A stretch of DNA of 43,017 nucleotides from the NCBI GenBank assembly GCA_021801645.1, contig JAJYXT010000020.1, forward strand, positions 1-43,017, read 5' to 3'. This stretch comes from a bacterium. GTDB lineage: Bacteria; Chloroflexota; Dormibacteria; Aeolococcales; Bog-877. Position numbers and translations under genes: made by a program. The notes beneath the pieces were generated by a model. That model was not told the origin of the DNA and did no database searches. It saw only the letters and a list, made by a program, of their open reading frames with translations. Positions 39,408 through 43,017 of the stretch are shown one piece after another (the stretch's first letter is position 1; every line of letters starts with the position of its first letter).

Positions 39408-40295
39408 GTGCCCGAGGCGGAACGGCCCTTGCCCCACGCCGCCCTGCGAGCCGGCCTGAATGTCACAGCCGGTCTCCTGCACCTCCTGGGGGACCACAGA
39501 TACCGGCTTGCGGACGCCATGGCCAACCTTGCCTTCGCCCTCCAGCCCCGAAGGAGAGCCATCACCGCCTCCAACTTCCAGAAGGTCGTTCCGGGGCTGA
39601 ACCGGCGCGGCGCGCGCCGGCTGGCCGCCCGCAGCTATCGGGAGTACGCCAGAACCGCGCTGGACTTCGTCTACGTCCACCGACTGTCGCGCCCACGCCT
39701 CCTGTCGACCTTCACGGCGTTCGGAGCGGAGAGGCTTCTGGACCTCCGGCTCCGCGGAAAGGGAGCGGTGCTGGTTCTGTTCCACCTGGGAACCTGGGAC
39801 GCCGGCGGGGCCTACGCCACCGCGATCGGCCTGCCCCTCACCGTGGTGATGGCGGACGAGGGCTCAGCAGCCATCCGCGACCTGGTGGTGTGGGCGCGCT
39901 CCGAGATGGGGATGCACACCGTGCTGGCGTCCCACTCTCCCCGGGCCGTCCTGGCGGCGTTGCGCCGGGGAGAGGTGGTGGCGCTGGTAGCCGACATCCC
40001 GGGTGACACCCCCTCCATGGACGTGGAGTTCCTCGGCCATCTGACGAAGATCTCCGACCTCCCCTATCGGCTGGCGCAGCACACCGGTTGCCCCCTCATC
40101 CCGGTGGTGGCGGTGCGCAGCCCGGCGGGCGGCTACTTCATCGAGGTGCACGATCCCACGCTCGTGGCGCCAGGGGCCGATCCCCAGAGGGCACTCCGCC
40201 CGGTGCTCGGGGCCTTCGAGCGCGCCGTGCTCCGCTGGCCGGAGCAGTGGTATCCCTTCGAGAGAGGGCGTCTGCGTGAGCTCGGACCAGCCTGA
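39408..40295 (+). CDS. LpxL/PatA-like lipid A/phosphatidylinositol-mannoside-type acyltransferase
   Basis: A 295-residue protein of the LpxL/HtrB/PatA superfamily. The catalytic H-x4-D motif is in LFHLGTWDAGG (about residues 125-135), and VALVADIPGD with the later PYRLAQHTGCPLIPV completes the acyl-acceptor region. In Actinomycetota the family member PatA puts palmitate on phosphatidylinositol mannosides; in Gram-negative bacteria it acylates lipid A. With a GT4 glycosyltransferase directly downstream, a glycolipid acceptor at the inner face of the membrane is likely. The stop lies inside the next gene (20-base overlap). Confidence 0.85.
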   Translation: MPEAERPLPHAALRAGLNVTAGLLHLLGDHRYRLADAMANLAFALQPRRRAITASNFQKVVPGLNRRGARRLAARSYREYARTALDFVYVHRLSRPRLLSTFTAFGAERLLDLRLRGKGAVLVLFHLGTWDAGGAYATAIGLPLTVVMADEGSAAIRDLVVWARSEMGMHTVLASHSPRAVLAALRRGEVVALVADIPGDTPSMDVEFLGHLTKISDLPYRLAQHTGCPLIPVVAVRSPAGGYFIEVHDPTLVAPGADPQRALRPVLGAFERAVLRWPEQWYPFERGRLRELGPA

Positions 40296-41439
40296 GGGCG
40301 GGCTGCGGGTGGCCCTCCTCGGGCATGCCGGAGGGCGTCGGGCGGACGGCCTCAGCAGCTACAGCGAGCAGGTGGCGCAGGGGTTGCAGCGCCGGGGCTG
40401 CACCGTCTACCTGCACCACGCCGCCGAGGATGGCCTGCTGGTGCCGGTGGAACCGTCCATGGCCACCTCTTGGCCCACCCTGCGTTTCAAGACGGTCACC
40501 ATCCCCGGTCCGGGATTCCGCCGCCGGATGGAGGCGGCCATCGCCCTCCAGCGGCCTCAGGTCACCCATTGCTCATTGAGCTTCACCCTCGCTGACGGCT
40601 GGGCGGGGGGACTGGCCCGCCGGCACGGGTCCGCCACCGTGGCCACCTTCCATCTTCCCTTCGCTGCCGAGGGCACCGCCCGGGGCTGGGTGATGCGCCA
40701 GTTGCACCGCTTCTGGCTCGCCCGGCTTGGCGCCTACCAGCGGCTGGTGGTGTTCACCGAGGGCCACCGGGAGCGGCTGCTGCGGCTGGGGGCCGGGCCC
40801 GAGCGGGTCGTGGTCGTGCCCAACGCCGTGGATGTGGACCTCTTCCGACCTCCCCGGGGAGATCGTCGGCTCCGGTCGCCGGGCGAGCTGGTGGTCGGCT
40901 ACCTGGGCCGTCTGGATCCGGAGAAGGGGATAGGTGCGCTGCTGGAGGGTTTCGCCGCCGCCCCGCTGGCGCGGGGAGCCCGGTTGGTGATCGCCGGATC
41001 CGGCACCCTATCGCCCCTAGTTCGGCGCGCCGCGGCCATCGACCCCCGGGTCAGCTATCGGGGCCAGCTGGTGGGCGCCGACGCCCGAGTAGCCTTCTGG
41101 CAGGAGGTCGATGTCTTCTGCCTTCCCTCCACCGCGGAGGGACTGTCCATCTCGTTGCTGGAGGCAATGGCCAGCGGCTGCGCCGTGCTGGCCACTCCGG
41201 AGGGCGGGCTGGGGGTGGCGGCCGAGGGGGGCCTGGCGATCGACCCCAGTCGCCTGGCAGCCTCGCTGGGGGAGCGGCTGGGCCAGCTGGCATCCGACCC
41301 GAGCCTGGCCGCCGCCCTGGGGGCAGCGGCCCGCCAGCAGGCTCTCCAGCATCACGGCATGGAACCGATGATCGAGCGCCTTCTGGCAATCTATCGAGAT
41401 TGCATGAGGGAGCTGGAAACGCCACCGGGGAGCGAGTGA
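40276..41439 (+). CDS. GT4 (GT-B) glycosyltransferase, PimA/PimB-like
   Basis: A 387-residue GT-B enzyme. The N-terminal Rossmann half starts RVALLGHAGGRRADGLSSY. The C-terminal half has VVVPNAVDVDLFRP, then GYLGRLDPEKGIGALLEGF and the donor motif E-x7-E in STAEGLSISLLEAMASG. It transfers a sugar from a nucleotide donor (often GDP-mannose or UDP-sugar) to a lipid or glycan acceptor. The GTG start overlaps the acyltransferase end by 20 bases, which implies tight coupling. Together they resemble the PatA-PimA pairing of mannosylated phospholipid synthesis, but the other genes of that pathway are not in the window. Confidence 0.88.
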   Translation: MSSDQPEGGLRVALLGHAGGRRADGLSSYSEQVAQGLQRRGCTVYLHHAAEDGLLVPVEPSMATSWPTLRFKTVTIPGPGFRRRMEAAIALQRPQVTHCSLSFTLADGWAGGLARRHGSATVATFHLPFAAEGTARGWVMRQLHRFWLARLGAYQRLVVFTEGHRERLLRLGAGPERVVVVPNAVDVDLFRPPRGDRRLRSPGELVVGYLGRLDPEKGIGALLEGFAAAPLARGARLVIAGSGTLSPLVRRAAAIDPRVSYRGQLVGADARVAFWQEVDVFCLPSTAEGLSISLLEAMASGCAVLATPEGGLGVAAEGGLAIDPSRLAASLGERLGQLASDPSLAAALGAAARQQALQHHGMEPMIERLLAIYRDCMRELETPPGSE

Positions 41440-42317
41440 CCGCCGGGAGGACCTCGAGGACGGCTCTGGTGGTGGATAGTGGCGCCTGCCTGCCCCCGGA
41501 GCTGGCGGGGGCCCCTCAGGTGACGGTCGTGCCCATGTCCATCGAGGTGGACGGGCGCAGCCTCCGCGACGGTGTGGACATCTCCAGCGAGGAGCTGTAC
41601 TCCATGCTGCGGGCGGCGGGCCCCCTTCCCACCAGCAGCTCCCCGAGCCCCGGCGAATACCTCAGGGCCTTCCGGGAGGCGGGAGCGGACAGCGTGCTCT
41701 GCCTCACCATCCCGGGAGGCTTCTCGACCATGGAGCGCTCGGCCCGGGTGGCCGCGGAGATGCTGCGCGAGGAGCGGCCGGGGAAGCGGGTGGAGGTGAT
41801 GGACACCGGCACCGCCGCCGCCGGGTTCACCCTGGTCGCCGAGGCGGCCGCCGCCGCCTGCGCGGCCGGCCTGGAGCTGGAGCAGGTGGTGGCTCACGTG
41901 GCCCGCCTGGCGGCCTCGACCCGGGTCATCGCGGCACTGGAGACGATGCGCTTCCTGGTGCGCTCCGGCAGGGTGCCGGCGCTGGCGGGCAGGGGGAGTG
42001 ACCTTCTGCGCGTGCGCCCGGTCTTCGCCTTCGTCGGCGGTGATGTCCGCCGGCTGGGACTGGTGCAGGGAACGCGGCGAGCCCTGCGGACGGTGGTCGA
42101 CTCGCTGTATGAGCAGATGCCGCGGGACGCGCCGCTGCGGCTGGCCGCCTTCTGCGGGGACGCCGCCTCCACCATGGAGCCGCTGGTGGAGGCTCTCCGC
42201 GGGCGGTTCGGGGTGGATGGGGTGGAGCAGCTGAGCCTCACCCCCGTTATCGCCCTCCACACCGGCCCCGGCCTCTTCGGGGCCGCGGCCATCCGCGACC
42301 TGCCGCTGCCGGGATGA
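41436..42317 (+). CDS. DegV-family fatty-acid-binding protein
   Basis: A 293-residue protein with the DegV fold. TALVVDSGACLPPEL opens it, the lipid-contact motif PTSSSPSPGEYLRAF follows (about residue 65), then ETMRFLVRSGRVP and a C-terminal domain ending HTGPGLFGAAA. DegV/FakB proteins hold a fatty acid so that a FakA kinase can phosphorylate it; no FakA is in the window. The GTG at 41436 overlaps the glycosyltransferase stop (GTGA) and has GGGGAG just upstream. The frame is open twelve codons earlier, to 41400, but those residues overlap the previous gene without support. Its place in a lipid operon fits fatty-acid supply. Confidence 0.9.
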   Translation: MTAGRTSRTALVVDSGACLPPELAGAPQVTVVPMSIEVDGRSLRDGVDISSEELYSMLRAAGPLPTSSSPSPGEYLRAFREAGADSVLCLTIPGGFSTMERSARVAAEMLREERPGKRVEVMDTGTAAAGFTLVAEAAAAACAAGLELEQVVAHVARLAASTRVIAALETMRFLVRSGRVPALAGRGSDLLRVRPVFAFVGGDVRRLGLVQGTRRALRTVVDSLYEQMPRDAPLRLAAFCGDAASTMEPLVEALRGRFGVDGVEQLSLTPVIALHTGPGLFGAAAIRDLPLPG

Positions 42318-42979
42318 CCGGCCCACTGAGCACTCCGACCGGGATCGCTGCCCTGTTCTGTGGTGCCTACATCCTCGGAGGGGTGCCGGTGGGATGGCTG
42401 GTGGGACGTGCGGCCGGGGTGGACCTCCGCCAGGTGGGCACCGGCAAGATCGGCACCAGCAACCTCTACCGGACGGTGGGGCTGGGGCCGGCTGCCGTGG
42501 TGGGGCCACTCCAGTTCGCGCAGGGACTCTCGCCGGTGCTGGCTGCCGACCTCCTGCGCGGCCCTAGCTGGGTCGCGGCCGGCGCCGGTCTGGCGGCGGT
42601 GATCGGCAACGGTTGGCCGTTCTACTTCCGCTACAACGGCGGCCGGGGGGTGGCCACCGCCACCGGGGCCATCGCCCTCTGGTCCTGGATCGGGCTGGTG
42701 TGCCTGCTCGCCGTGCTGGCGGTGGGCGGGGGGATGCGGCGGAGTGGGCTCGGTGTGCTCATGGGCTACCTCAGCCTGCCGGTGGTGCTGGCGGCCAGCC
42801 GCGACCCGCGGGCCTACCCGATCACGGCCGTCGGGGTGCTGCTGTGCCTGCTCCTCCGCCGCTTCGAGGGCTACCGTCTCTGGCCGCCGAGCCGGCGCGA
42901 TCCCCAGGACGACTGGAAGCGCCGGCTGGTCGACGACTGGCGCCCCGGCCCCCAACCTGAACAGGGCCTAAACTCGTAA
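42314..42979 (+). CDS. Divergent PlsY-like glycerol-3-phosphate acyltransferase family protein
   Basis: A 221-residue membrane protein with about six helices. The glycine-rich first motif is GTGKIGTSNLYRTVG (usual PlsY: GSGNxGATN). The second is GNGWPFYFRYNGGRGVAT (usual GHxxPxFxxFKGGKGVAT). In both, key positions differ: Asn for the His in G-H, Asn for Lys and Arg for Lys in the GGKG stretch. No His-containing third motif (as in NIxRL) is evident. The fold is that of PlsY, which makes lysophosphatidate from acyl-phosphate and glycerol-3-phosphate, but activity is uncertain. ATGA overlap with DegV makes it the last gene of the operon. The cytosolic tail is charged. Confidence 0.75.
   Translation: MTGPLSTPTGIAALFCGAYILGGVPVGWLVGRAAGVDLRQVGTGKIGTSNLYRTVGLGPAAVVGPLQFAQGLSPVLAADLLRGPSWVAAGAGLAAVIGNGWPFYFRYNGGRGVATATGAIALWSWIGLVCLLAVLAVGGGMRRSGLGVLMGYLSLPVVLAASRDPRAYPITAVGVLLCLLLRRFEGYRLWPPSRRDPQDDWKRRLVDDWRPGPQPEQGLNS
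42969..42974 (+). promoter_or_regulatory. -10 element for a leaderless fumarase-like mRNA
   Basis: TAAACT lies seven bases before the GTG at 42982 and overlaps the last codons of the PlsY-like gene. No Shine-Dalgarno sequence intervenes. Confidence 0.5.
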
Positions 42980-42981
42980 CC

Positions 42982-43017
42982 GTGGACGCAGAAGTTCGGC
43001 TGGAGCGCGATTCCATG
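42982..43017 (+). CDS. fumC: Class II fumarase/aspartase family, first 12 codons only
   Basis: Only VDAEVRLERDSM is encoded before the window ends. The pattern R-x-E-x-D-[ST]-M close to the start is the invariant opening of class II fumarases and the related aspartate ammonia-lyases, where it is followed by GEV and GAQTQRA. Fumarase is favoured because the family is common in the citric acid cycle of such hosts, but aspartase cannot be excluded from twelve residues. The start lies two bases after the stop of the PlsY-like gene, but its own -10 hexamer suggests separate transcription. Confidence 0.5.
   Translation, partial: MDAEVRLERDSM

Follow-up and report, generated by a model that had tools for sequence, protein, structure and literature searches.

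A divergent PlsY-like protein paired with a FakB-like carrier in a putative lipid-acylation operon from the Dormibacteria

The 3' end of a 43,017-base contig from a bacterium of the Dormibacteria (JAJYXT010000020.1; hereafter "the window", which is the complete contig C21 of our genome G000, a Dormibacterota-like metagenome-assembled draft of 2.13 Mb that is 84.7% complete) carries four genes on the + strand, A to D (positions 39408-42979), of which the third encodes a DegV/FakB-like fatty-acid binding protein (gene C, 41436-42317; its protein is called DegV2 below) and the fourth a divergent membrane protein of the PlsY fold (gene D, 42314-42979; PlsY2). PlsY is known to catalyse the first step of phospholipid synthesis in bacteria, and is essential. 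In the genomes related to that of the window, PlsY2 was found with a DegV gene next to it in every case, and the residues that in canonical PlsY bind glycerol-3-phosphate (G3P) are replaced. We give roughly even odds (about 0.5) to the reading that C and D form a dedicated pair of acyl-phosphate carrier and acyltransferase, which acts on an acceptor other than G3P and which, together with the glycosyltransferase B and the acyltransferase A, makes an acylated glycolipid. More specific and more surprising than the existence of the four-gene module is that a FakB-like carrier is consistently paired with a PlsY whose active site has been rebuilt.

Linkage of DegV2 and PlsY2

The linkage was studied in 61 related genomes, for which the tables of matches to the PlsY profile PF02660 and the DegV profile PF02645 contain 104 and 138 rows, respectively; as these genomes are kin, row counts across them do not represent independent events. 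The PF02660 rows comprise canonical PlsY (at least 138 bits, n = 45), a class scoring 79-110 bits (n = 43) and a third type below 75 bits (n = 16). A DegV gene lies within 1 kb in 42 of the 43 rows of the 79-110 bit class, in 0/45 canonical rows and in 0/16 rows of the third type. The single exception (G135:C14:10166) matches profile positions 2-92 only and takes a canonical position in the tree, and was therefore counted as a cut canonical gene, which leaves a DegV neighbour for 42 of 42 PlsY2 rows, some of them cut by contig ends. Nearly all members of the third type occur in the sister family of the window's family (f2 and f1 below); one third-type row, in which a match of 39.6 bits stands beside an LpxL gene (G131:C74), may be a cut PlsY2 with its DegV out of view.

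Gene order was compared in 41 loci, namely the window and 40 fetched ones; the f1 loci were chosen for DegV and PlsY matches lying together, and 18 family genomes were searched. The order A-B-C-D is present in all 16 f1 loci compared, of which 15 were fetched and one is that of the window. Among the f1 genomes outside these loci, the contig of G102 breaks off within the operon, and G108 gave no PlsY match. In f2, the same gene order recurs in L123, L124, L126 and L127, and also in L125, where it is cut by the contig end; in the remaining f2 loci C and D are adjacent or back to back, A is in many cases convergent to them and B is sometimes nearby, so the C-D pairing persists through several rearrangements of order and strand. 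A preliminary description of this DNA, made from the sequence alone, had proposed a single acylation and glycosylation module and named a gene order unique to this genome among the grounds for abandoning it; the recurrence in two families speaks for the module. As part of the joint explanation given above, and with the same odds, the four genes would constitute a conserved lipid-acylation module. A membrane protein that the annotation of one member assigns to PF03706, the transmembrane region of lysylphosphatidylglycerol synthase, is encoded near C and D in 19 of the 40 loci that were fetched; all 19 belong to f2.

Outside the order, inspection by eye revealed a PlsY-like gene beside DegV in at least five genomes (G036, G005, G018, G055 and G050), and among the matches listed there is a further PlsY-like gene in G019, about 0.6 kb from DegV. 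In the PlsY tree, these proteins are spread over three or more branches. PlsY2 itself forms a single clade of 41 rows (SH-aLRT 95 in a tree from a quick search rather than a completed thorough one); its neighbours are the G019 protein (SH-aLRT 86) and further proteins of Chloroflexota type that lack the usual third motif.

The pocket of PlsY2 and the fatty-acid site of DegV2

The PlsY2 of the window scores 95.9 bits against PF02660 (cut-off 24.1) and 83.5 bits against the PlsY equivalog model TIGR00023, below the cut-off of 137.2. Its predicted structure (pLDDT 87.2, pTM 0.85) retrieves in Foldseek, at E <= 0.001, PlsY structures only (five chains; best match 5xj7, with a TM-score of 0.85 normalized by the target and 1.9 A). 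In the PlsY crystal study (PMC5700162), the phosphate of G3P is clamped by Ser35, Arg45, Lys104 and Asn180, its 2-OH group is contacted by Ser142 and His177, His92 and Thr41 contact the acyl-phosphate, and the G3P pocket is termed highly invariable. The same study gives residual activities of Aquifex aeolicus PlsY variants of 17% for S35T, 45% for T41S, 25% for K104R, 32% for S142A, 7% for H92N, 5% for N180A and at most 6.5% for every change of His177. The chain number of A. aeolicus PlsY corresponds to the number in that paper plus one, and positions 142, 177 and 180 were placed in our alignment by the sequence of motif 3, not by superposition.

In the readable rows of PlsY2, Ser142 is replaced by Val (40/40), His177 by Arg (39/39) and Asn180 by Gly (39/39), and the 26 genomes with a canonical PlsY in addition are no exception; among the readable canonical rows, the original residues are found in 60/61, 60/60 and 60/60 cases, respectively. 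Further replacements affect His92 (Asn in 40/41), Asp59 (Gln in 40/41) and Lys62 (Gln in 41/41). Position 104 is occupied by Arg in 41/41 rows, position 41 by Ser or Ala, and position 35 by Thr in 25/41, and Arg45 is kept in 36/41, including the window. In the canonical comparison set, in which three genes are represented twice, His92, Asp59, Lys62, Ser35 and Arg45 are each found in 62/62 rows. Alignment and model thus describe a protein that keeps the fold of A. aeolicus PlsY (5XJ5-5XJ9), its acyl-phosphate loop (GGRGVAT in the window) and Arg45, but differs from it in His92, Asp59, Lys62, Ser142, His177 and Asn180, with the G3P side of the site rebuilt. With this pocket, the PlsY-like protein of the preliminary description is not an ordinary PlsY. 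PlsY2 also has conserved motifs of its own, RRxEG and DxRPG, in the C-terminal tail, and within the genus it evolves under purifying selection (ratio of nonsynonymous to synonymous substitution rates, dN/dS, of 0.09-0.19).

DegV2 of the window scores 205.5 bits against TIGR00762 (cut-off 99.7), which places it among proteins with the DegV domain. The residue roles in FakB, i.e. the carboxylate network and Arg173, and the identification of Arg205 as the key residue for binding of FakA, are taken from PMC8892158. With the FakB proteins FakB1 and FakB2 of Staphylococcus aureus, DegV2 shares the family, the carboxylate network and Arg173: the window protein has Ser at the position of Thr62, followed by Ser95, Ser171, His270 and Arg173, and the equivalents of Arg173 (residue 179) and Ser95 (residue 97) are present in 41/41 loci. 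Position 62 is Ser in f1 and Thr in f2 and f4, position 171 is Ser or Thr, and position 270 is His or Tyr. A loss of Ser95, suggested by a Pro at residue 93 of DegV2, was considered and rejected, as the alignment with FakB2, by which this position was set, puts it at residue 97, where the Ser is kept; the FakB2 counterparts of Thr62 and Ser95 are Thr61 and Ser93. Unlike the S. aureus proteins, DegV2 adjoins PlsY2 rather than FakA, and in the genus the docking Arg205 (equivalent residue 211) is replaced by Gln in 7/7 members, including the window, Arg being found in the 34/34 other DegV2 proteins. Apart from this one doubt, the sequence of C is that of a competent FakB-like protein, and family membership and residues indicate that it most likely holds a fatty acid, in keeping with the fatty-acid binding previously ascribed to it.

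The operon and the lipid genes elsewhere in the genome

Open reading frames and Pfam matches, all of them above the curated cut-offs, agree with the four genes and identities first described. Gene A (39408-40295, GTG start) encodes an LpxL/PatA-like acyltransferase of 295 amino acids (PF03279, 95.6 bits), B (40276-41439, GTG) a glycosyltransferase of 387 amino acids with GT4 domains (PF13692, 77.9 bits), C (GTG) a protein of 293 amino acids (PF02645, 202.2 bits), and D (ATG) one of 221 amino acids. Overlaps amount to 20 bases for A/B and 4 bases each for B/C and C/D; an alternative TTG start of C at 41400 would extend the B/C overlap to 40 bases. Within the genus, purifying selection acts on each of the four genes (dN/dS 0.06-0.36), which together with the recurring gene order marks the set as more than a chance arrangement. 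The sequence 3' of position 43017 lies beyond the contig, and family relatives carry a fumarase-like lyase as the next gene. Upstream of A, the Pfam/NCBIfam scan finds a rhodanese, a short-chain dehydrogenase and a divergently oriented DUF255/thioredoxin-like protein (PF03190, 37129-39138), whose cluster is seen in 12/41 loci.

Genes A and B had been compared with the pair PatA and PimA, which act on phosphatidylinositol mannosides (PIMs). With PatA (5F2T/5OCE), A shares the LpxL-type family and the HX4D motif, whose His and Asp are invariant in the 34/34 readable rows of the locus set, but its phmmer match to the PatA structures 5oce/5f2t reaches only 35 bits, and its score against the NCBIfam model of PatA (PRK07920) is 89.2 bits, below the cut-off of 209. 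Likewise, B has the GT4 domains and the EX7E motif (both Glu invariant, 31/31 rows) of PimB', PimA and MshA, yet its best PDB match is PimB' (3okc) with 53.5 bits, followed by PimA with 35.5 bits, and it reaches no equivalog cut-off. A phosphatidylinositol (phosphate) synthase and an inositol phosphate synthase were not found upstream of A in the window; such a set is present on contig C3 (G000:C3:35771-45219), where a glycerol kinase and a MIP (aquaglyceroporin-like) channel are accompanied by a phosphatidylinositol phosphate (PIP) synthase-like protein, a GT4 protein, two PatA-like proteins with higher scores (125 and 150 bits, also below the cut-off) and an inositol-1-phosphate synthase. 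This cluster is the PIM-like locus of the genome, the operon of the window is separate from it, and the assignment of A and B as the genome's PatA/PimA pair was given up in favour of this fuller and better-scoring set.

FakA, a search for which had been recommended, is encoded in the window genome on contig C11, beside a second, canonical DegV/FakB, and PlsX is also present; in the sample, 58/61 genomes have FakA and 59/61 PlsX. Canonical PlsY was not found in the PF02660 profile table for any of the 8/8 genomes of the genus or the 4/4 genomes of the next genus, g76. The GpsA domain PF07479 was not found in 43/61 genomes of the class, including 8/8 of the genus and 11/11 of f3 and f4. A complete lack of G3P in the genus was nevertheless rejected, since glycerol kinase is present in 8/8 genomes and G3P can thus be made. 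Lipids based on glycerol-1-phosphate, made with the help of an AraM-like enzyme, were also dismissed: the PF13685 match of the window genome reads, by eye, as a maleylacetate-reductase-like dehydrogenase. A search of the window genome for a protein of PlsB size yielded only PF01553 frames of PlsC size (264 and 401 amino acids), and a PlsC-type protein encoded on contig C3, about 9 kb from the glycerol kinase, is a candidate for the first acylation step. As to other genomes, G027, G071, G079 and G087 of f4 (92-96% complete) have PlsX and no PF02660 match, and f4 genome G095 likewise lacks such a match; in several f2 genomes canonical PlsY adjoins glycerol kinase (e.g. G122:C13, G132:C95, G125:C85), and in locus L159 (G122:C9) it is accompanied by an LpxL-like gene and a GHMP-type (galactokinase-like) kinase. 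Thermomicrobium roseum, which has diol-based lipids, belongs to the same phylum. For this bacterium, the usual glycerolipid acylation has been reported missing (PMC2615216); the genus studied here differs in having glycerol kinase, and the window genome in having the PIP-synthase-like and PlsC-type proteins.

Possible functions of the pair and their meaning

According to the reading we prefer, DegV2 would be a dedicated carrier of a fatty acid or acyl-phosphate, and would hand acyl-phosphate to PlsY2, a membrane acyltransferase that would move the acyl group onto an acceptor other than G3P. This acceptor would most likely be a still-anionic lipid or sugar-lipid intermediate, an anionic nature being suggested by the Arg residues at positions 45, 104 and 177, the last of which is new. 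To the same molecule B would add a sugar and A a second acyl chain, which would result in an acylated glycolipid. Several points weigh against this reading. D might be inactive, given how little activity A. aeolicus PlsY retains with H92N; since canonical PlsY was not found in the genus and in g76 while PlsX is present, acylation of G3P could be the task of PlsY2 there; and docking of DegV2 to FakA is doubtful in the genus, with Gln in place of Arg205. Moreover, A and B are missing from some stretches with C and D (of the 41 loci, 35 have A and 30 have B, the latter count rising to 31 with one weak match), and the neighbourhood of LpxL and PlsY is not special to PlsY2: based on 62 chosen LpxL rows, an LpxL gene lies within 4 kb in at least 35/43 rows of the 79-110 bit class and in at least 14/45 canonical PlsY rows.

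Alternatively, PlsY2 may be a re-tuned G3P acyltransferase, which would be fed by DegV2 and carry out the housekeeping first acylation of the genus. The absence of canonical PlsY from the profile table for two genera that retain PlsX, the glycerol kinase in all genomes of the genus and the remaining Arg residues at positions 45 and 104 agree with it, but Ser142, His177 and Asn180 are gone in every readable row, even in genomes in which a canonical PlsY is at hand, and the second PlsC-type acyltransferase of the genus (in the window genome, that of the glycerol kinase contig) could perform this step; we consider such a role somewhat unlikely. Less probable still, in our view, is that PlsY2 no longer catalyses a reaction, serves in the membrane to dock or sense acyl-phosphate or DegV2, and leaves the chemistry to A and B. 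The nearly universal replacement of His92, Asp59 and Lys62, together with the low activity of H92N, would be expected of such a protein; the purifying selection on D, its conserved tail motifs and the kept acyl-phosphate loop would not. We regard as the least probable a second PIM-type pathway, in which B would mannosylate and A acylate phosphatidylinositol, while C and D would merely boost the acyl supply: A and B do resemble PatA and PimB'/PimA and the genome does encode a PIP-synthase-like protein, but the PIM-like set on contig C3 is fuller and matches better, and the strictest linkage in the operon is that of C with D, not of A with B.

The acyl-phosphate carrier and acyltransferase pair remains our preferred explanation. 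The glycolipid pathway originally envisaged gains from the conservation of the module and its fatty-acid carrier, and loses the identity of A and B as PatA and PimA as well as the suggested use of host fatty acids, as the relatives of the window genome were binned from metagenomes and none of the observations suggests a host. The combination had been called unfamiliar, and our searches of the open-access literature, which covered titles and the beginnings of abstracts, found, among the papers listed, no described pathway of this kind, no paper on a DegV-PlsY gene pair or on this lineage, and none on lipid acyltransferases of Dormibacterota; for PlsY in a novel acyltransferase role they gave PMC5700162 only. 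Taken together, the data suggest, for this poorly studied environmental lineage, an undescribed way of making an acyl-decorated lipid. A broader proposal, that PlsY2 and its own FakB-like partner represent an acyl-phosphate-driven acyltransferase with DegV-delivered substrate and an acceptor other than G3P, and hence a reuse of the PlsY fold for acylation of glycolipids or other lipids in Chloroflexota-type bacteria, is more tentative, and we put it forward as possible rather than probable. The findings also raise a testable question, namely how genera without canonical PlsY begin the synthesis of their glycerolipids. If the proposed function of the pair is true, acyl-phosphate would serve lipids beyond those derived from G3P, and many unassigned DegV proteins would gain a concrete candidate partner.

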